This document shows positions 1 to 7,320 of a stretch of 7,320 bases of DNA, piece by piece. A model generated the notes under the pieces. The model saw nothing but the letters and a program-made list of their open reading frames with translations, was not told the origin of the DNA and made no database searches. The stretch spans positions 1-7,320 of the forward strand of contig WYEI01000132.1 of NCBI GenBank assembly GCA_009903905.1, read 5' to 3'. Positions within the stretch are counted from its first letter, which is position 1. Each line of letters starts with the position of its first letter. A program made the translations under genes and the position numbers. The stretch is from Pyrobaculum sp. (GTDB lineage: Archaea > Thermoproteota > Thermoprotei > Thermoproteales > Thermoproteaceae).

Positions 1-676
1 TCAAGAACTCGACGTAGTTGAACTCGCCCGGCTTCGCCAAGATTACGACGGGCCTCGCGGAGATTACGACGCCTAGTCTAAGCAGAGGCTCGGAATACAG
101 CCTGTCGAGCTCCTCCAGAGGAGCCTCCGCCTCGTCAGGCGCATCCGGCGGGCCGGGCTGAGGCGAAGCCGCCGCGAGGGAGGGGGCGGAGAAGTCGACG
201 GAGACGGAGACCTCCCTCGGCATCTCGAAGGACGGGGCGATACCTGCTGACCTGAGCTGGAGCGGGGCTATGCGCGGGGGCTCAAGGGAAAGGCCGAGCC
301 GCATCTGGGGTGCCTCCTTAAAGGAGACTATAATGGGCTTGAGAGATGCAGTAAGGGATCTCGCCGGGGGGACTCCGTATTCGAGCTGGAGGGAGATCTG
401 CTTAGGCTTTCCGAATGAGGGGGAGAGAGGTCTAAGCCTTAAGTCGATTTTGGCGATCTGCGGCAGGTAAAAGTCTAGTTGGTATGAGAGCGGCCGCGGC
501 GTCTCGGAGACAAGCTTTACAAGTCTCAGCCTAACCTCTACCGTCTGCTCAACCGCTTCTTTAGGCATAGCGCGGGGCGTCTCCGCCGCCGCCGTCTCCC
601 TGCGCCTCAGCACCCTAACGACGTATAGGAACTCCTCAGGGAATGTTCCCCGTTGAAGTTCCACTGCTACAGCCAT
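1..676 (-). CDS. Unrecognised protein with proline-rich beta-strand repeats (partial, C-terminus outside window)
   Basis: I do not recognise this family. The reading frame opens at an ATG (676-674) and stays open through base 1, giving 225 visible residues without a stop, so the C-terminus lies beyond the left edge. Three parts are visible. Residues 1-75 are a mixed head. Residues about 76-168 are a chain of short alternating-hydrophobic strands separated by prolines, roughly every 15 residues (segments such as IDLRLRPLSPSF, QISLQLEYGVPP, MRLGLSLEPP, VSVSVDFSAPSL). Residues about 169-188 are a Pro/Ala/acidic linker, after which a new domain begins (LLRLGVVISARPVVILAKPGEF). There is no signal peptide or membrane segment. 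The start overlaps the end of the 370-residue gene by 10 bases (ATGGCTGTAG) and has an AGGTGA ribosome site four bases upstream, so the two are probably translated together from one transcript. The function is unknown; the repeats suggest a scaffold or surface-binding role, which is speculation. Confidence 0.75.
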   Translation of the reverse strand, partial: MAVAVELQRGTFPEEFLYVVRVLRRRETAAAETPRAMPKEAVEQTVEVRLRLVKLVSETPRPLSYQLDFYLPQIAKIDLRLRPLSPSFGKPKQISLQLEYGVPPARSLTASLKPIIVSFKEAPQMRLGLSLEPPRIAPLQLRSAGIAPSFEMPREVSVSVDFSAPSLAAASPQPGPPDAPDEAEAPLEELDRLYSEPLLRLGVVISARPVVILAKPGEFNYVEFL

Positions 677-1779
677 ATAGTCACCTTGTCAATACCGGGC
701 TCGGCCAAGCCGAGAAATAATATAGGCGAGAACTTCTCTACAAAATCGAGATATGAAACAGAGACAGTTCGTTGATAGGAATATCTGCGCCCTTCTGAGA
801 CCCCAGACGAGTAGTAACGAATCTCCCAATAAGTTATCTGTACAATTCCATTTCCAATTTTTACCTCTATCCTAGGCTCATACAGCTCCTTAGCTGGTAT
901 GCCCGCAACCTCTAATATATCGTAAATCTGATATTTATTTAGATAGGCTTTGTATTCATCATCCCCGTAGATTCTGTAGAGCTTGTCTATGACATGGGTC
1001 ACTAAGTCGCCTACTGTGTCTTTCTCGTGGCCGTAGAGTCCCAGCTCTTCGTCGAGCTCCTTGCCTAGGCCGGGCGCGATTCTTAGGCCTATCTTCACGC
1101 CGTATCTCTCCATAAGCGCCGCGACGGCGCCGTCGAAAAGCTTCTCGCCGTACATCAACCTGAGGTATGGCTTCGGCGTAAGTCTAAGCGAATATAGGAA
1201 GAATGTGAAGGGGTTGTAGAGGGGGAGGAGCCTAAGCCCCGCGTTCAGAACCTCCTCATACGCGCCCACGAGATCCCTAGCATCCCTCACCTCGTACCTC
1301 CTCGGTTTAACCTCCACCGAAACCTCTTTGGGGACGCGTCTATACACCTCGTAGAGAACCCTCTCGACCTCCCTGAGGGTGTTGATTACGTCCGTCTCCT
1401 GCTCCGTGATTTTGCCGAGCTCTTGCGGCATCTTGCCGGCCTTAAGCGCGTTGACCAGCTTGTTAAGCGCGTCGAGACTCACCTCAAAACCCAGCTTCTC
1501 TCTGAAGAACCTCGCCGCCGAGCCCTCGGGGAAGCAGCTCTGCTCGATCACGCCTTTGTCTACGCATTCCTGCCTCACGCCGCCGAGGAGCATCTGGAGG
1601 GCTAGCTCCCTGTCGCCGCCTCTCAGGACTTGCGCCAAGTCGCCGGATAGCCGGCCCAAGACATCCTGCCTCGCCTTCAGGAAGCTGACCAACGCGGAGT
1701 AGAAGGCGCCCAGCTCCTCCCCGAAATACCTAACCCACGTAGACTCATCCCAAAACTCCACAGTCACGTTAACAGCCAT
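667..1779 (-). CDS. Unrecognised 370-residue protein, mostly helical with a beta-rich C-terminus
   Basis: I do not recognise a family. The protein starts at an ATG (1779) with no ribosome site, consistent with a leaderless transcript, and ends at TAG (667-669). Residues about 10-150 are charged, helix-like segments (for example FYSALVSFLKARQDVLGRL and NTLREVERVLYEVYRR). A middle part (about 165-300) is also mostly helical, with an aromatic patch around residues 187-210 (LYNPFTFFLYSLRL). Residues about 302-370 alternate in a strand pattern (RIEVKIGNGIVQITYWEIRYY). Only two cysteines (C72, C82) are present, too few for a zinc finger or Fe-S site. No Walker, nuclease or methylase motif is seen. 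There is no signal peptide; the aromatic patch is too interrupted for a confident membrane helix. It overlaps the next gene by 10 bases and the two probably act together. Its place beside methylase and nuclease genes is the only functional hint. Confidence 0.8.
   Translation of the reverse strand: MAVNVTVEFWDESTWVRYFGEELGAFYSALVSFLKARQDVLGRLSGDLAQVLRGGDRELALQMLLGGVRQECVDKGVIEQSCFPEGSAARFFREKLGFEVSLDALNKLVNALKAGKMPQELGKITEQETDVINTLREVERVLYEVYRRVPKEVSVEVKPRRYEVRDARDLVGAYEEVLNAGLRLLPLYNPFTFFLYSLRLTPKPYLRLMYGEKLFDGAVAALMERYGVKIGLRIAPGLGKELDEELGLYGHEKDTVGDLVTHVIDKLYRIYGDDEYKAYLNKYQIYDILEVAGIPAKELYEPRIEVKIGNGIVQITYWEIRYYSSGVSEGRRYSYQRTVSVSYLDFVEKFSPILFLGLAEPGIDKVTIWL
681..686 (-). promoter_or_regulatory. 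Ribosome binding site of the left-edge gene
   Basis: The minus strand reads AGGTGA, an exact complement of a TCACCT anti-Shine-Dalgarno, four bases before the ATG at 676. It lies inside the last codons of the upstream 370-residue gene. It supports this start and a coupled two-gene transcript. Confidence 0.6.
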
Positions 1780-1794
1780 GTAGATCTCTACTTG

Positions 1795-1808
1795 AATAAA
1801 AAATTTGT
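1795..1808 (-). promoter_or_regulatory. Possible TATA-type promoter for the 370-residue gene
   Basis: The minus strand reads ACAAATTTTTTATT here, an AT-rich block whose centre is about 20-25 bases before the ATG at 1779. That spacing and the absence of a ribosome site fit a leaderless start. The match to the archaeal TATA consensus is loose, and the same T-run could instead terminate the upstream gene. Confidence 0.35.
1798..1803 (-). terminator. Possible T-run terminator after the EVE-like gene
   Basis: Six consecutive T on the minus strand begin 16 bases after the stop codon at 1819-1821. Archaeal termination commonly uses such T-runs without a hairpin. The site overlaps the proposed promoter of the next gene, so both readings cannot be separated from sequence alone. 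Confidence 0.25.
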
Positions 1809-1818
1809 TAACTGGGGT

Positions 1819-2277
1819 CTACCGCAACGGCTTCAGTAGCTCTGCCAGCTTCTCCGCCAGCTCTGGCTTCACTGTCTGTATGCCTGGTAGTATCCTTACG
1901 CCGAGTTCCTCCAGCCGCCGCCTGTCTGGCAGGCGCCATTTGGCCGGGTCGTAGGGGCTCTCTATCACCCCCTCTGCCGCTTTCTCTGCCTTTATGGGGA
2001 GGAGGTAGTGCCACTCGCCGGAGGGCCAGTACCTCCCCGAGAACTCCCTCACGTCGAGGAGGCGGCCGTAGAGGACGAGCCCGCCCTCGTTATACTGGTT
2101 CTTCGTTACGTAGAGAAACACGCCTATCCCCGCCTTGACGCGGCTGTCCACCCGGCCGGCCCCCCACAGGAAGACACCCGCGGGGAACTGCCTAATCAAC
2201 TCAGAACGCCTCCCCACGAAATCACCTAAGCTGTGAAGAAAATTCTCAAGCGACCCCTTGAGAAGGAGATAACTCAT
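1819..2277 (-). CDS. Small EVE/PUA-like domain protein (possible modified-base reader)
   Basis: This 152-residue protein has the look of the PUA-like superfamily (EVE, ASCH, DUF365-type archaeal proteins). Residues about 47-96 give the typical order: a Gly-led strand (AGIGVFLYVTKN), a second strand with a turn (GGLVLYGRLLDVREF), then a Trp-rich segment leading into a final strand (YWPSGEWHYLLPIKA). The C-terminus ends with a proline-containing turn and a helix (TVKPELAEKLAELLKPLR), also common in these proteins. Members of the EVE/YTH/ASCH group are known to bind modified bases in DNA or RNA and often sit beside restriction or methylase genes; a DNA-modification-sensing role here is inference. 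The ATG at 2277 lies about 26 bases after a good TATA box with no ribosome site, so it is likely leaderless and forms its own transcription unit. The assignment rests on pattern only; a different PUA-like or OB-like fold is possible. Confidence 0.6.
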   Translation of the reverse strand: MSYLLLKGSLENFLHSLGDFVGRRSELIRQFPAGVFLWGAGRVDSRVKAGIGVFLYVTKNQYNEGGLVLYGRLLDVREFSGRYWPSGEWHYLLPIKAEKAAEGVIESPYDPAKWRLPDRRRLEELGVRILPGIQTVKPELAEKLAELLKPLR

Positions 2278-2297
2278 AGCTCATTAAATCCACTGCA

Positions 2298-2315
2298 ATA
2301 TATAGTTTCCTTTTT
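2298..2315 (-). promoter_or_regulatory. BRE/TATA promoter of the EVE-like gene
   Basis: On the minus strand AAAAGGAAAC is followed directly by TATATATT. The TATA centre (about 2302) is 25-26 bases before the ATG at 2277, the usual spacing for a leaderless archaeal start, and the purine-rich GGAAAC just upstream fits a BRE. The purine run begins at the stop codon of the methyltransferase gene. This is the best-looking promoter in the window. Confidence 0.7.
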
Positions 2316-3336
2316 ACCTTCTAGGCCTGAACTTAAGTAGGAAAAGGCGTCTTCCCTTTTTTGCGCGTCTCTCGCCTAAATCAACGAGGGAGACACTTAG
2401 GCCGGCCTCCTCGCCGAATTTGGCCAGGATTTCGTGAAGTGGGACATACACGTCGCCGAGCACTGAATCGCCAATGGTGTACCAGGCCTCAGCCTCGAGC
2501 CTCTGCGCAAGTAGGTGGATGTGCCTCCGCATATAGTATAGGTATTGAGACAAGAAGCGCTGGTACCCCCTAGCCCTCTTTCCTCCCGGCTTGACGTCTA
2601 GGGGCGTGTGTAGCTTCCAGCTCCTCGCCGCCGCCTCGCAGGCGGGGAGCTGTAGGTCCCTAGCCCTGGGGGGATCTACGCCGAGCCACAGAAGCTCTAT
2701 CTGCGTATGCCGCACGTAGTCTACGTTGTTGGCGAAGGGCGGGCTGGTCAAGACGCCGCAGACTCTGCGCGGCATAAGCCACGTCGAGTCGCCCAAAACG
2801 ACGTCGCCGCGTCTCCCCCCTAGAAGCTTCAAGTCCTCCTTCGCGGCCCTCAGCATCGTCTTGAAGTACTCCTCTGGGTCGCCGCGGGCCTCGCCGCCTC
2901 TGAAGCGGGGCGCCGGCGAGTACTTGAACCTCGAGAAGCGCCGCGCCACGTTGAACAAAACGCCGGCTTCAAGCGCCGTGTGGACGCGCCTAGACAGCCT
3001 CAGAAGCTTCTCGTAGACGTCTTCCCGGTAGTAATTCGCCAGGCGCGGGTCTGGCCTCAGCGCCGCGTGGGTCTCCGGGGCTACCTTAGCCGCCGCGGTG
3101 ACGACCGCCGCCGGGTTCGCGTCGACACCCACAAACCTACGCTCCCTGAGAAGGGCCTCCACCCCCACGGTGCCCGACCCCATAAACGGGTCATACACCG
3201 CTTCGCACTCCACCTCGCGAAAAAACGCCTCCACAACCCCGGGGGTCAAGCCATGCTCCGTATAGACCAGAATACGGTGAATCGGCTTGTCAGCCCAGTA
3301 GTTACCTGAGGCACCTTGACTGTTTAAAACATCCAT
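2314..3336 (-). CDS. DNA amino-methyltransferase, TSPPF type (N4-cytosine or N6-adenine)
   Basis: This is an S-adenosylmethionine-dependent DNA methylase by motif. Numbering from the chosen ATG gives 340 residues. A motif X-like segment occupies about 13-36. Motif I is DPFMGSGT (49-56). Motif II is VGVDAN with D72. Motif III is GDS (182-184). The catalytic motif IV is TSPPF (197-201), followed by an ANNVDYVRHTQIELLWLG stretch. S/TSPPF is typical of N4-cytosine enzymes but does not exclude N6-adenine. The order X-I-II-III-IV differs from the beta-type order (IV before I) of M.PvuII. About 100 mostly helical residues lie between motifs II and III and may be the target-recognition part. A TTG start at 3357 is possible, but the ATG at 3336 has a GGGAGGT site ten bases upstream, so I prefer it. 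It overlaps the helicase gene by 35 bases and is probably cotranscribed with it and the nuclease. The target sequence cannot be read from the protein. Confidence 0.85.
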   Translation of the reverse strand: MDVLNSQGASGNYWADKPIHRILVYTEHGLTPGVVEAFFREVECEAVYDPFMGSGTVGVEALLRERRFVGVDANPAAVVTAAAKVAPETHAALRPDPRLANYYREDVYEKLLRLSRRVHTALEAGVLFNVARRFSRFKYSPAPRFRGGEARGDPEEYFKTMLRAAKEDLKLLGGRRGDVVLGDSTWLMPRRVCGVLTSPPFANNVDYVRHTQIELLWLGVDPPRARDLQLPACEAAARSWKLHTPLDVKPGGKRARGYQRFLSQYLYYMRRHIHLLAQRLEAEAWYTIGDSVLGDVYVPLHEILAKFGEEAGLSVSLVDLGERRAKKGRRLFLLKFRPRR

Positions 3337-4834
3337 AGACGGCTCTACCTCCCTCAATTAACTCCATCATTTTCTTGCCTGTATCGCTAATTCTTTCGTC
3401 ATAAATCCCGCCGCGACGTAAACTGAAATTCTTAAGACACTCGACGCAACCTATCGCGACGAGTAGCCTCCTGTGGCGGCTGAGCTGCACGTTCAGCAAC
3501 TCAGGCTCTCTGGCGTACAACGTCGCAAACATCTCCGCCAAGTTCGATGCCGCGTACTCCTTACCCAGCATAGTCACCACGAAGTCCTGCTCCCCGCCAA
3601 TCATAGCCTGCACGGTGTAGCTGTTGTCAAACCTCAGCCCCAGCCGCCCCATCTGAAAGTCAATAGACCAAGACATGTCGGTATATATCGAGGTCGCCGC
3701 CAAGCCCAGCCCTCCCCCAAGGCCTTGGGACCAAAGGTATAGGGCTAACGTGGCGTAGAAACCCAACTTGGCCCGGGTCTCGTCCAACGTGTCGCCGCTC
3801 TTAAAGGCATCCACGTCAAGAACAGCAAGGGGGATCTTTGAGCTGATGGCCTCCTCCAACAGGGAGACTACCTGTTGCACCTCGGCCTTGCTTACGTTTA
3901 TGTACTTATTCATCTGGGTAAGAACGTTTCTGGAGTCGAAATTAAACCCGGAAAGCCGTCGCGACCCGTCCTCCAGCGCTTTTAGCAATCCGCCGTAGTA
4001 CCCGGCGCTTATGGGCTCATGCGACGGCTCCGGTAGCCTAAATGTTACATCCAGCAATTTATAGAGATGCTCAAGCCCGCGCTCTCTTAATTTCCGCTTC
4101 ACCACATTCATCAGCAGTATGTCGCGGCCGTACTCGGTGATTGATATGGCTTGCTGGGGGTCGCCAAGTGCCACAAGGGCCTCAGGGAAGTCTCTATACT
4201 GGCTGGCCGCAATCCTGCGCACCATGGGGATGAGGGCGCGGAAATAAGGCGATTTACTCGACTCATCCACAATGACCTTAATAGGCCTCTTACCCCCTTT
4301 ATCTTCTATATATGGACGCTGGAACTCGGTGGAGAAGATGAGCCGCACGTTTTCGTCGATTTTAAGATCTACCATCTTGGCGGCATCTATGCCGTCGCCG
4401 CATGCCTTCTGCAGAGCCGGCCTCCGGCTGCTTTTGATCCTGTAGCCCAGCACCCTCACCACGTCGGGAATCCCCCGGGCCCACCTACACCTCTCCCCCG
4501 GGTCAGGCGCAACTTTCCTTAAAATCGCCGCCAACACCCTGACACAGGCGTCGAAGACAAGCTCGTTTGTCGGCGCTATGTAAAATATAAGTTCGTTAAG
4601 CTCCAGAAGTTGATTAACAATATATTCCTCGGCCAACAGCTCCACTATGTACGTCTTGCCGGACCCCGGCGGACCTTGAACAGCGGCAAGCGGCACGTCA
4701 AGGTCTAGCCTCAAGGCCTGATAAGCTAGCCGGTAGCTATCACTATAGGCCGGGAAGCGGGATAGATCCAGCCGCCTCCTGGGAGCCTCCGCTTGAACAA
4801 ACGCCCTTTCAAGGCAGTTCTCGACGGTCAACAT
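3302..4834 (-). CDS. SF1 UPF1/Dna2-like helicase
   Basis: The 510 residues carry a full set of superfamily 1 helicase motifs in order: Walker A GPPGSGKT (54-61), motif Ia APTNELV (87-93), motif II VDES (189-192), motif III GDPQQ (224-228), a motif IV-like TFRLP followed by YYGGLL (264-284), motif V GGEQDFVV (413-420) and motif VI LSRHRR (451-456). The DES motif II, the TFR motif and the GGEQD motif resemble the UPF1/Dna2 branch (compare DEA, QYR and QGxE), so ATP-driven unwinding or translocation on DNA or RNA is expected. It is shorter than most Dna2 or UPF1 helicase regions and begins almost directly at the helicase core. It starts one base after the stop of the Fe-S nuclease gene, has no ribosome site, and an in-frame TAA lies two codons before its ATG; translation is probably coupled. 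The pair looks like Dna2 split into two subunits. The methyltransferase gene overlaps its 3' end. Confidence 0.88.
   Translation of the reverse strand: MLTVENCLERAFVQAEAPRRRLDLSRFPAYSDSYRLAYQALRLDLDVPLAAVQGPPGSGKTYIVELLAEEYIVNQLLELNELIFYIAPTNELVFDACVRVLAAILRKVAPDPGERCRWARGIPDVVRVLGYRIKSSRRPALQKACGDGIDAAKMVDLKIDENVRLIFSTEFQRPYIEDKGGKRPIKVIVDESSKSPYFRALIPMVRRIAASQYRDFPEALVALGDPQQAISITEYGRDILLMNVVKRKLRERGLEHLYKLLDVTFRLPEPSHEPISAGYYGGLLKALEDGSRRLSGFNFDSRNVLTQMNKYINVSKAEVQQVVSLLEEAISSKIPLAVLDVDAFKSGDTLDETRAKLGFYATLALYLWSQGLGGGLGLAATSIYTDMSWSIDFQMGRLGLRFDNSYTVQAMIGGEQDFVVTMLGKEYAASNLAEMFATLYAREPELLNVQLSRHRRLLVAIGCVECLKNFSLRRGGIYDERISDTGKKMMELIEGGRAVYGCFKQSRCLR
3347..3355 (-). promoter_or_regulatory. 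Ribosome binding site deciding the methyltransferase start
   Basis: The minus strand reads GAGGGAGGT, ending ten bases before the ATG at 3336. It lies inside the coding end of the helicase gene. It would be downstream of, and useless for, the alternative TTG start at 3357, so it favours the shorter protein. Confidence 0.6.
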
Positions 4835-4835
4835 A

Positions 4836-6566
4836 TTAAATTACAGGCCCGAAAAGTCTGTATAGTCTCCACTTCACCTTGTAACCTGCCTCAAAGGCAA
4901 CACGCTTGGCCTCCTCCATGTTCCAGCCCTCCTCCTCTGCAAGCTTCTTCACAGCCCGCTGAAAAGCGTCGATAGCCATAAGCTCGATATGTGTAAGATC
5001 CACGTTGCTCTCCACAGCGACGACGCCACGGCTAAGCTTCTCCTCGCGACTCAACAAATCTCTAAGGAGGAAGTACGACAACTTAGTAAACTTACCCTCA
5101 AACGAGACGACTACGCGCAACTCATCGCCCTCCCTTAAAACCTTATCCACATTACCGGAGAAACTCGTGGAGTAAATAATCTCCTCCGAATCCCCCAGGA
5201 AGATAGTGACCGGCTTCCCCTCCCTAACCGTCAAAGGCACGCCTCTCCTCTCCTCCTCCTCTCTAACACTCCTGATGAGGTCCGCCTTAAGCTCTTCTTC
5301 GTCAACCTCGATTCTTTCGAAAAAGTCGGCACGGGCACCCCCCTCCAGCCGAATAAACCCACGTACCCAGCTCATCTTCGCTATAGAGTAGAAAGGAAGA
5401 AGCGCGTTTTCCCGCACCCCGTAGACCCTGTAGCGCGTACGCCACGCCAGCTGATGTACCTCGTCGGGGTTCTGCTTCGAGAAGAGGTAGAACTTACACG
5501 CCTCTTTGAGCCTACAGGAGCCGCAGGGGTAGCTAGTATTGACGTGGGGGTTGAGCGTATACCCCTTATTCCTCAACGCCTCGGGCACATATCGAAACAC
5601 CACCTTTCCACCACTCCCACACAACGCCTTCTCCTTCTCACGATCCCAGGAACTGTCAACCTTCTTCAGGTTAAGCATAGAGAGGATCAGATGTGTCGCG
5701 GCAAGCTTAATCTCCTTCAAGATCTTCTCCTCGCTCAGCCTAGTGGACTTCGCAGTTTTAAAACAACGAGAGATAGAATACGGGTTTTTTCTACCCTTAT
5801 CCCTAATCACCACAGGGAATACGGCGCATTCCTCCACAGCCTTTGCGCCGTCTTTGAAACCAAGCCTATGCGCGACCATAATAGAGTAGACATAGCCCTG
5901 GGCGATCTCGTCGGGGCTGGGCGTCGCGCCGCCCTCCATGCCGAGGGATGTCTTCCACTCCACCACGACGGCGCGCCGTTTCGCCGGCTCCTCCACCACG
6001 AGATCAGGAACCCCCCTAACGTGTATCTTGTAGTCAAACAACTGAAGCTCAGCCCGCACCCGCGCCTCCGAGACGTCTAAAATCTGCATTGCATCAAGCT
6101 GACGCATAAACTGCACAAAAACCCTCGCCATCTTAACCGCAGAACGGATGACCGCATCCCCCCGGGTGGTCCGGGCCTCCTCCTCCAGCGGAGGCACCCT
6201 AGCCTCCCGAAGCTCGTTGTAGGCGGCATTCACGTAGCTATCCACCGCACCCAAAGCCTTGTCGAATTCGCGCGTTATAATAAAGTCGACAAACAGCCTC
6301 GGCACAGCCACAGCCAAAACCTGATGAACCGACTGACCCTTGCCGGGAAACACGCTGGTAGACGCCGCCAAGTCGCTCGCCCCCATAATCTCGATAAGCC
6401 TAGCCTCAAAAGGACACCGCCCCACAGCCCTAGCCACAGACGCCGCCTTCACAAGATGAGAAGTCCCCCGAAGACCCTCCTTCAGCCTATTCCTACAGTC
6501 GGCCAAATCCCCCACAATGTCGTATAAAACCTCAACGTTCAACATTCCAATCTCGTCAGAATCCAT
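4836..6566 (-). CDS. Cas4/Dna2-type Fe-S cluster PD-(D/E)XK nuclease
   Basis: Numbering from ATG 6566 gives 576 residues. Residues about 45-360 show the signature of the Cas4/Dna2/AddB nuclease group. There is one N-terminal cysteine (C51, in GRCPFEARLI), a histidine in GQSVHQVL (H81), a GVPD motif with D188, the VEWK motif with E203 and K205, a QGY motif (Q223), and a C-terminal cysteine trio CGSCRLKEAC (C348, C351, C357). The four cysteines can bind a 4Fe-4S cluster; H, D, E, K are the expected metal/catalytic residues. All key residues are present, so it should cut DNA, probably single-stranded ends. Residues about 440-576 form a beta-rich part and terminal helices, reminiscent of the barrel and stalk between nuclease and helicase in Dna2. 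It is far longer than Cas4 (about 200 residues), and no cas gene is nearby. A GTG start at 6581 is possible, but ATG 6566 has a TATA-like box at a leaderless distance. It leads the operon with the helicase and methyltransferase. Confidence 0.85.
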   Translation of the reverse strand: MDSDEIGMLNVEVLYDIVGDLADCRNRLKEGLRGTSHLVKAASVARAVGRCPFEARLIEIMGASDLAASTSVFPGKGQSVHQVLAVAVPRLFVDFIITREFDKALGAVDSYVNAAYNELREARVPPLEEEARTTRGDAVIRSAVKMARVFVQFMRQLDAMQILDVSEARVRAELQLFDYKIHVRGVPDLVVEEPAKRRAVVVEWKTSLGMEGGATPSPDEIAQGYVYSIMVAHRLGFKDGAKAVEECAVFPVVIRDKGRKNPYSISRCFKTAKSTRLSEEKILKEIKLAATHLILSMLNLKKVDSSWDREKEKALCGSGGKVVFRYVPEALRNKGYTLNPHVNTSYPCGSCRLKEACKFYLFSKQNPDEVHQLAWRTRYRVYGVRENALLPFYSIAKMSWVRGFIRLEGGARADFFERIEVDEEELKADLIRSVREEEERRGVPLTVREGKPVTIFLGDSEEIIYSTSFSGNVDKVLREGDELRVVVSFEGKFTKLSYFLLRDLLSREEKLSRGVVAVESNVDLTHIELMAIDAFQRAVKKLAEEEGWNMEEAKRVAFEAGYKVKWRLYRLFGPVI

Positions 6567-6584
6567 ATACAATCCAACCACCCC

Positions 6585-6601
6585 CTTAATAAGTTTAAAA
6601 G
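6585..6601 (+). promoter_or_regulatory. Promoter of the DUF1156 methylase gene
   Basis: The same AT-rich block read on the plus strand, CTTAATAAGTTTAAAAG, precedes the ATG at 6616. The CTTAATAA half is centred about 27 bases upstream, the expected distance for a leaderless start. The two divergent units therefore seem to share one core promoter region, which could let one regulator control both. Confidence 0.45.
6586..6600 (-). promoter_or_regulatory. Promoter of the nuclease-helicase-methyltransferase operon
   Basis: The minus strand reads TTTTAAACTTATTAA, centred 26-31 bases before the ATG at 6566. This fits an archaeal TATA element driving a leaderless or nearly leaderless transcript. A G-rich GGGGGTGG follows and could act as a weak ribosome site instead. 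Confidence 0.5.
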
Positions 6602-6627
6602 CAAATTATAGAGATATGAAACTTATT
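6588..6627. repeat. 9-bp inverted repeat across the divergent promoter (possible operator)
   Basis: AATAAGTTT (6588-6596) and its exact complement AAACTTATT (6619-6627) are separated by 22 bases, with arm centres 31 bases apart, close to three helical turns. One arm lies in the TATA block of both promoters and the other covers the first codons of the plus-strand methylase. A dimeric regulator could bind here; chance is possible in AT-rich sequence. Confidence 0.35.
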
Positions 6628-7320
6628 GAACGCTGGCTACCCACAGAATACCTCTCCATAGAGGCCGCAAGAGAAAGAGGAGCACGATTTCCGCCGCTTT
6701 TCTGGCTTCACATATGGTGGGCTAGGCGCCCCTTAATCGGTATGCGTACGGTCATTGCGGCTTCTCTTGTAGATGCCGAGGGCGTAGATGAGAGGCGGAG
6801 AGAGGAGTTCCTTAGGGCCATCTGGCTTAAGGTGGGCAACAGCAGGAGGAGGGAGTCGAGCTACCCCGGCCAGCCTGAGAGGCCGGCGTATAACTACAAC
6901 CCCCTCGTAGACGTCCTAGAGAAGCTCGCCGGAAGACCCCTCCGCGAGGTGAGGCTACTCGACGTCTTTGCGGGAGGCGGCTCTATACCCTTTGAGGCCT
7001 TGCGGCTGGGCGTAGGCGAGGTGGTGGCTGTGGAGTACAACCCCGTGGCCTACGTCATCCTCAAGGCCGTCCTCGAATATCCCATGAAGTACGGCCAAAG
7101 ACTGGCAAACGACGTGGAGAAGTGGGCCCACTGGATGCTAAACGAGACAAGGAAAAGACTAGCCCCCTACTTCCCGCGGCACCCCGAGGGCAACCCCACT
7201 AGCTACATCTGGGTGCGTGTCTACAGATGCCCCATCCACGGCGTAGATATCCCAGCCGTCACATTTACAAGACTCTCCGAAAAGAGGGACTACGGCCTGA
7301 AGGTCGAATACAGCAACGGT
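6616..7320 (+). CDS. DUF1156-family DNA methylase (COG1743-like), partial, C-terminus outside window
   Basis: The frame opens at ATG 6616 and is open to the right edge, giving 235 residues. The N-terminus has the DUF1156 signature: IERWLPTEYLSIEAARERG, then PPLFWLHIWWARRPL (26-40), which must be kept and so fixes the start. Motif I for S-adenosylmethionine is DVFAGGGS (116-123), with the acidic residue E140 in VAVEYNP. Residues about 198-214 (WVRVYRCPIHGVDIPAV) match the start of the zinc-ribbon insertion of this family, though the usual second cysteine is a histidine (C205, H208). Proteins of this family are annotated as adenine-specific DNA methylases, usually 800-1000 residues long; the catalytic (N/D)PPY motif is expected beyond the edge and cannot be checked here. 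It is transcribed divergently from the nuclease operon across 49 bases. In other archaea such methylases are often found with DUF499 ATPases (from memory), so the next gene outside is worth seeing. Confidence 0.88.
   Translation, partial: MKLIERWLPTEYLSIEAARERGARFPPLFWLHIWWARRPLIGMRTVIAASLVDAEGVDERRREEFLRAIWLKVGNSRRRESSYPGQPERPAYNYNPLVDVLEKLAGRPLREVRLLDVFAGGGSIPFEALRLGVGEVVAVEYNPVAYVILKAVLEYPMKYGQRLANDVEKWAHWMLNETRKRLAPYFPRHPEGNPTSYIWVRVYRCPIHGVDIPAVTFTRLSEKRDYGLKVEYSNG

Follow-up and report, generated by a model that had tools for sequence, protein, structure and literature searches.

A two-gene Dna2-like effector in place of the SWI2/SNF2 helicase in a probable DUF499/DUF1156-type restriction system of Pyrobaculum and other archaea

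The stretch of DNA analysed here, hereafter the window, is a 7,320-nt piece of a Pyrobaculum sp. contig (WYEI01000132.1), in which a DUF1156 DNA methylase, an iron–sulphur (Fe–S) nuclease, a superfamily 1 (SF1) helicase and a second, small methylase belong to what is probably a restriction-like system. A reading made from the sequence alone (the sequence-only reading) had placed seven open frames here and named two methylases, an Fe–S nuclease, an SF1 helicase, an EVE-like protein and two unrecognised proteins, which we call P1 and P2; all seven frames are present at those coordinates (Table 1), and the methylases, the nuclease, the helicase and the EVE-like fold gained support from the comparisons that follow. 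Six of the genes lie on the minus strand in a tightly packed row, with gaps below 40 bp or overlaps, while the DUF1156 methylase alone runs rightward from about 6616. Both edge genes are incomplete: P1 (2–676) at the start of the window and the DUF1156 methylase at its end. The nuclease and methylase genes diverge from an AT-rich gap with a single TTTAAA at 6594, which may hold a promoter shared by the two. For the nuclease, a start at 6566 is preferred to one at 6581 by the lengths of its homologues (575–576 amino acids, aa). Close relatives with a name come from Pyrobaculum sp. (nuclease, P2) and Thermoproteus sp. (P2); a search of the window DNA against phages gave no match.

Table 1. Genes and features of the 7,320-nt window, with the evidence behind each assignment.
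Feature	Position	Strand	Basis
DUF1156 (HmaB-type) DNA methyltransferase, N-terminal 235 aa	6616..7320	+	PF06634, HmaB, tree position
Gap between the divergent nuclease and methylase genes	6567..6615		Sequence; TTTAAA at 6594-6599, TATA-like
Cas4/Dna2-like 'iron-staple' PD-(D/E)XK nuclease, four cluster cysteines	4836..6581	-	Conserved residues, PF12705, weak PADLOC matches
SF1 helicase, UPF1/Dna2 type	3302..4834	-	SF1 motifs, UPF1/NAM7 profile matches
Small TSPPF (N4/N6 amino) DNA methyltransferase, overlaps end of helicase gene	2314..3357	-	N6_N4_Mtase
EVE-fold protein, predicted modified-base reader	1819..2277	-	AlphaFold2 model and Foldseek
Unrecognised protein P2, first gene of a two-gene unit	667..1779	-	P2 family contexts, model
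Unrecognised protein P1, second gene of the P2-P1 unit, incomplete	2..676	-	10-bp overlap with P2

Nucleases of the iron-staple kind combine the RecB-type motif set H, D, ExK and QxxxY with four cluster cysteines. In alignments of the window nuclease the motifs fall at H86, D193, E208-x-K210 and Q228-x3-Y232, and the cysteines at C56 and C353-x2-C356-x5-C362, so that the protein carries everything that marks the Cas4/Dna2 iron-staple nucleases. All of these sites are invariant across the 20 nuclease loci that we assembled (the window and 19 relatives), E208 excepted, which is E in 18 and D in two. PF12705 is annotated on a number of homologues in precomputed records, and PADLOC returned weak DruK/Cas4 matches. 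A RecB-family nuclease with four cysteines is the 'iron-staple' arrangement described for DNA2, AddB and Bad (PMC7430649). A protein search that scored only the 7997 candidates richest in common words found at least 52 relatives, the closest 97% identical, mostly jgi/ena records with one named Pyrobaculum metagenome-assembled genome (MAG) among them; none was found in plasmids and viral contigs. The helicase gene begins 1 bp downstream of the end of the nuclease gene. Pfam and PADLOC recognise its product as a P-loop helicase. Its SF1 motif set is complete, with Walker A, DE, GDPxQA, R, GxE and SR all conserved, and the best solved matches of its profile are UPF1/NAM7 (E ~1e-9); the single sequence had no match in a sequence search of the PDB.

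The pair formed by these two genes recurs, with a patchy distribution. A scan of species genomes yielded three loci, in Aeropyrum, Acidilobaceae and Bathyarchaeota, and class-wide searches found the nuclease in 13 of 229 Thermoproteia genomes and in two of 256 genomes of the class to which the Bathyarchaeota MAG belongs, a third match there (G259, 40 residues) being excluded from the counts. In a phylum-wide draw, 16 of 398 genomes matched: eight were already known, four gave new loci, and four (G594, G606, G614, G710; 32–80 residues) were short or weak and were excluded. The helicase gene adjoins the nuclease gene in 20/20 loci, on the same strand in 19 and divergent in one (L181), and in all 20 the two are separate genes rather than the one-chain fusion of Dna2. 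A DNA-modification gene lies within 2 kb in every locus: a DUF1156 methylase in 11, the window included, and a DndC-like sulphurtransferase in nine. By a rough estimate, a random gene would have a DUF1156 gene within 5 kb in about 0.2% of cases (62 matches were used for it, and 65 rows are listed below). We built the nuclease, helicase, DUF1156, DUF499, small-methylase and DndC-like profiles from the loci under study, which therefore match them by construction; independent of these profiles are the control loci described below, four held-out loci and L045, the last as regards the DndC-like profile. All four held-out loci, found after the pattern had been set, show nuclease, helicase and modification gene, and all four are of the DndC type. 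The distance matrices of nuclease and helicase agree (r=0.97, with none of 5000 permutations as high), and their trees each split exactly by modification partner (support 99/97 and 98/97); these trees cover 16 loci, before the last four were found, and the window and L045 have long branches in them.

The co-occurrence survey proposed by the sequence-only reading came out in its favour as regards the core genes, which are conserved together between flanks that vary, from RNA polymerase genes to a Piwi protein and AAA ATPase/TOPRIM genes. A locus fixed in the core genome was considered and rejected, as the nuclease occurs in so few of the Thermoproteia genomes. Two of the flanks deserve mention in their own right. 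In L024 (12507–15317) the immediate neighbour of the SF1-type system is a protein of 936 aa that weakly matches a Piwi domain (E=2.9e-7), and the Bathyarchaeota locus L003 has AbiEii/OLD-like AAA ATPase genes on both sides (71–1543 and 19123–20917), one of them with a TOPRIM partner.

The modification side of the window is formed by two methylases. The DUF1156 methylase matches PF06634 (E=1.4e-13) and PADLOC HmaB (E=2.7e-22), and at family level its sequence fits the DUF1156 N6-type methyltransferase expected of Hma; although it occupies only 21% of the alignment columns, it falls within a nine-row clade of SF1-linked methylases (Shimodaira–Hasegawa-like approximate likelihood ratio test, SH-aLRT, 99). 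The small TSPPF methylase is recognised by the Pfam model N6_N4_Mtase (E=9.5e-7) and is present in nine of 11 DUF1156-type loci, as against 0/42 control loci and 0/5 DndC-type loci tested. The DUF1156 methylase, Fe–S nuclease, SF1 helicase and small TSPPF methylase form the core of a conserved system. The sequence-only reading had also suggested looking for a DUF499 ATPase; looked for in the relatives, its gene was present in 10/10 DUF1156-type loci, and a DUF499 AAA+ ATPase is expected near the DUF1156 gene of the window, just past the window edge.

Canonical DUF1156 loci have a different effector. Hma uses a SWI2/SNF2 helicase (PMC8565338), which PADLOC labels HmaA, an SNF2/DEAD-box helicase, and no such gene lies inside the window. 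For comparison we used the DUF1156 genes of the class, which occur in 53 of the 229 genomes (65 rows: nine in nuclease loci, 44 covered by 40 control regions, those of G220 and G199 by L041 and L044, and 10 short or weak). The 42 controls comprise the 40 fetched nuclease-free regions plus L041 and L044; five are without a full methylase and several reach contig edges, and all were kept in the count. A helicase was scored as SNF2 at 300 bits, so that L114, with a 23-bit match, counts as none. The SNF2 profile had L041 and L044 as seeds and was then extended over all loci, which makes matches in the control loci partly circular; the lack of a match in the 10 case loci refers to this same profile. 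On this basis, the SNF2 helicase occurs in 0/10 DUF1156-type relatives with the SF1/Fe–S pair and in 30/42 controls (Fisher p=4e-5), or in 29/32 controls with a full methylase and DUF499 (p=2e-7), both values overstating independence because the loci share descent. Adding the 10 weak rows, three of them with SNF2, brings the controls to 33/52. Conversely, the SF1/Fe–S pair was seen in 0/42 controls and in 0/52 with the weak rows added: the two effectors are mutually exclusive, even though one genome (G121) carries both kinds of locus (L023, L130). In a DUF1156 tree built by a quick method with SH-aLRT support, the SF1 label needs two changes, one for the nine-row clade that includes the window and one for L020/L021, which lie inside an SNF2-linked clade; at L020/L021 the direction is well placed, with SNF2 replaced by SF1. 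The methylases of L145, L151 and L152 make up a deep clade, and the stretches fetched for these loci contain no DUF499 and no SNF2.

Because DUF499 is present in all 10 relatives and SNF2 in none of them, against 30 of the 42 controls, we view this as an Hma-like system whose usual effector has been replaced. In our judgement it likely belongs to the DUF499/DUF1156 (Hma, 'BREX-related') kind of restriction–modification-like defence, with a Dna2-like effector of two genes standing where the SWI2/SNF2 helicase-nuclease would otherwise be. Alternatively, the pair could be a Dna2-like repair or replication enzyme that merely sits beside restriction genes: Dna2 and Bad have the same two domains, Dna2 acts in replication and repair (PMC7430649), and an unfused UvrD and Cas4-like pair occurs in Clostridiales in a non-defence context (PMC5704561). 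We think this improbable, given that the pair is so rare among the Thermoproteia genomes, has a modification gene close by in every locus, excludes the SNF2 effector and has nuclease and helicase trees that both split by modification partner.

Several observations weigh against the effector-replacement reading, beyond the shared descent that inflates the Fisher values. The window ends inside the DUF1156 gene, short of any DUF499 position, and its nearest relatives with readable surroundings are about 35% identical to it, and are not the 55–97% relatives. The nuclease profile had no sensible match among PDB sequences (best E=0.5), and in the absence of a solved relative by profile the Cas4/Dna2 label draws on the motifs, PF12705 and the weak PADLOC matches. 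Twelve of the 42 controls are also without an SNF2 helicase, some at contig edges and L151 not, and two of the SNF2-less loci have a frame of 718–738 aa that weakly matches the SF1 helicase profile (L140:12046–14262, L152:2130–4286); since such controls (L151; L140, L152) remain, other effector types may exist. For the nine-row clade, which effector came first depends on where the tree is rooted.

The EVE-like protein is best viewed as a plausible accessory. It had no match in Pfam, PADLOC or NCBIfam or in a PDB sequence search, and its AlphaFold2 model is confident (predicted local distance difference test, pLDDT, 92). With this model Foldseek retrieves the EVE reader of McrB (6p0g, E=3.6e-5), followed by THYN1, PH1033 and 2eve; the predicted fold is EVE/PUA-like, at template modelling (TM) scores of only about 0.5. 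The family is found in six of the 229 Thermoproteia genomes and did not turn up in the stretches fetched around the 19 nuclease relatives; elsewhere it lies beside canonical DUF499/DUF1156/SNF2 genes (L041, L044) or within 7 kb of another profile-recognised methylase (L039, L040, L043), with none at L042. We regard it as an accessory and not as core because it is absent from the 19 relatives, yet adjoins DUF499/DUF1156 or other methylase genes elsewhere; binding of modified bases is predicted from the model. These contexts match a described association of EVE with DUF499 in archaea, in operons predicted to restrict modified DNA (PMC7641849). That prediction, with the likeness of the fold to the m5C reader of McrB, would also suit a pair acting as a modification-dependent (type IV-like) nuclease, in which the EVE protein reads a modified viral base and methylated host DNA is not what is spared. 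We consider this unlikely: EVE was not found with the same core in relatives, where two methylases are conserved instead, and we prefer a system that spares methylated host DNA. Two features of the wider EVE family were seen in passing. Five homologues (P0055, P0058, P0063, P0067, P0068) carry at the N terminus an additional domain of some 60 residues, whose two CxxC pairs make it look like a zinc ribbon, and near the EVE gene in L041 (12778–19526) and L043 (2158–9442) there are an extra methylase, a 954–1168-aa SF2 helicase with Dpd/BREX/Druantia-like matches and a roughly 700-aa protein of no recognised family.

P1 and P2 had no match in Pfam, PADLOC or NCBIfam. The P2 model is confident (pLDDT 91), and by fold it found no match in the PDB (best E=0.23). 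The P2 family occurs in 35/229 genomes, many of the matches being weak, and in six of the seven contexts fetched the gene that comes next is P1-like or a large one that recurs: in L076 and L077 it is detected by the P1 profile, and L078, L079, L080 and L082 have a related gene of 414–590 aa in this place. None of the seven fetched P2 stretches has the nuclease or DUF499, and the stretches fetched around the 19 nuclease relatives showed neither P1 nor P2. P1–P2 as a part of the system was accordingly rejected, and P2–P1 is probably a separate two-gene unit outside it. All seven window genes, P1, P2 and EVE included, could still belong to one larger system, as the row of six consecutive same-strand genes, closely spaced or overlapping, might suggest; in one genome (G126), moreover, about 9 kb separate a P2 gene (L078) from a canonical DUF499/DUF1156/SNF2 locus (L118). 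With EVE, P1 and P2 all undetected around the relatives, and P2 present in 35/229 genomes with a partner gene of its own, there seems little chance of this. The proposal of a single self/non-self system thus survives in part, with the methylases and the split Dna2-like pair recurring as a unit, the P1–P2 genes falling outside it and EVE joining only as an accessory. In other P2 loci, L077 has three consecutive P2-like frames, and in L076 (7448–8560) and L077 (7971–9077) P2–P1 is neighboured by related genes encoding about 370 aa, the L076 copy with a weak PADLOC PDC-S27 match (E=1.7e-12).

The same pair of Fe–S nuclease and SF1 helicase occurs beside a DndC-like gene of the PAPS-reductase family in the nine remaining loci (L019, L022, L028, L029, L045, L178–L181). 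PADLOC recognises DndC in six of the nine (E ~1e-33 to 2e-38); the partner was identified by a PAPS-reductase Pfam match and a sub-threshold TIGR03183 match in L019 and L029, and by profile and TIGR03183 in L045, which is cut by a contig edge. We keep the label at 'DndC-like' because the five proteins scanned score 91–118 bits, well below the curated DndC cut-off of NCBIfam TIGR03183 (290.4). The six aligned proteins conserve the PP-loop SGG[KR]DS and C118, C228 and C231; a sequence search of the PDB gave no match for one DndC-like protein. PAPS reductases being a common superfamily, the DndC-like model matches 171/229 genomes at E 0.001; scores above 200 bits come from four genomes only, in each case next to the nuclease and from a sequence used to build the model. 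Profiles for DndD and DndE found no match among the neighbours scanned, which are a part of each locus, and of 23 neighbour proteins used as queries none was common to all nine loci. Some neighbours are nevertheless shared. A class-I methyltransferase-like gene pair is found in L045 (3611–5226), L179 (5961–7755) and L180 (6020–7670), L179 and L180 have a 375–399-aa gene in common, and a P-loop protein of about 530–590 aa with an I(I/L)DEFE motif is common to L179 (629–2260), L180 (13455–15038) and L019 (5855–7624). The two of these P-loop proteins scanned match AAA_22 weakly, and they are possibly counterparts of DUF499/SspC. L019 and L146, a canonical DUF499/DUF1156/SNF2 locus that has three DUF1156 genes, are about 10 kb apart in the same genome and appear to form a single defence island.

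Among the matches listed, which for the TSPPF methylase are the best 25 of 41 in PADLOC, no BREX (bacteriophage exclusion) gene (PglZ, BrxC/DUF6079, BrxL or related) was matched by the seven window proteins in Pfam, PADLOC or NCBIfam, nor DrmA, DrmB or DrmC of DISARM (defence island system associated with restriction–modification) in PADLOC, both negatives covering the genes inside the window; BREX genes were also absent among ten proteins of the Bathyarchaeota locus, methylase cross-matches aside. BREX, DISARM and MADS (methylation-associated defence system) were rejected as names for the window, PADLOC having given for these only cross-family methylase or P-loop matches. The system is closest to Hma and the BREX-related (BR) types, which are widespread, and its helicase places it outside them; the statement that it is no named system thus stands for BREX, DISARM and the SWI2/SNF2 effector, and needs amending in that it is a close cousin of the Hma/DUF499 BR systems. 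With BR types 1–3 it shares the DUF1156 N6-type methylase, DUF499 (in all 10 relatives) and an effector made of a helicase and a nuclease. It differs in having an SF1 helicase with a separate Fe–S nuclease and an additional small TSPPF methylase, where BR types have a SWI2/SNF2 helicase, mostly nuclease-fused, joined to a PD-(D/E)XK or HKD nuclease in types 1 and 2 or found with PglZ in type 3 (PMC12839542).

Other known enzymes and operons share parts of this architecture. Dna2 and Bad likewise combine a four-cysteine RecB-family Fe–S nuclease with an SF1 helicase; here the two are separate genes, beside DNA-modification genes in 20/20 loci. UvrD–Cas4-like fusions linked to Type III restriction–modification or Dcm (PMC5704561) have the PF12705 Cas4-like nuclease, an SF1 helicase and a modification context in common with our loci, but those are fused and UvrD-type, while the window pair is separate, UPF1-type and found with DUF1156/DUF499 or DndC-like genes. 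The archaeal COG1743–DUF499–SWI2/SNF2–EVE operons (PMC7641849), which L041 and L044 resemble, share the methylase, DUF499 and a standalone EVE protein, and differ in the family of the effector helicase. As for the DndC-linked loci, they have a DndC/PAPS-reductase-type modification partner as do Dnd, Ssp and type-4 BREX, from which they are set apart by DndC-like proteins below the cut-off and by the SF1/Fe–S effector. In the accessible open-access literature, supplements excluded, we found no account of such an effector alongside DUF499 or DndC. The main text of PMC12839542, in its accessible form, does not mention Cas4, Dna2, UPF1, UvrD or RecB, its sole SF1 match being a reference title; because it reports that the fusion went unrecovered in about one-fifth of its type-1 BR taxa, with other nucleases nearby, its supplement may contain some SF1-type loci without comment.

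We infer the following order of events, with the methyl mark as self signal, by analogy with better known enzymes and families. The DUF1156 and small TSPPF methylases would mark host DNA, perhaps one for each strand of an asymmetric site. The DUF499 ATPase, which is ORC/Cdc6-like, may scan DNA and assemble where it is unmarked, as its family suggests, and could then recruit the SF1 helicase, which would unwind invading or replicating DNA 5' to 3', a polarity proposed from Dna2 and Bad. The Fe–S nuclease would cut the single strands so made, as in Bad, a 5'-to-3' helicase and single-stranded DNA endonuclease (PMC7430649). The EVE protein may in addition detect modified viral DNA.

Taken with the DndC-linked loci, this raises the prospect that a single split-Dna2 effector family, a UPF1-type SF1 helicase with an iron–sulphur nuclease, is an interchangeable restriction module of archaea, gated in one lineage by methylation and DUF499, in another by a DndC-like mark that is probably based on sulphur. 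We put this forward tentatively, as having somewhat less than an even chance of being right. If true, the module would be a new class of effector common to base-methylation and phosphorothioate-type defence. The exchange of effectors separates the reading of the mark from the cutting, and these archaeal loci make up a set on which the gating of a Dna2-like enzyme by a DNA mark could be tested. It would also give a role to genes that are annotated only as hypothetical, Cas4-like or PD-(D/E)XK.

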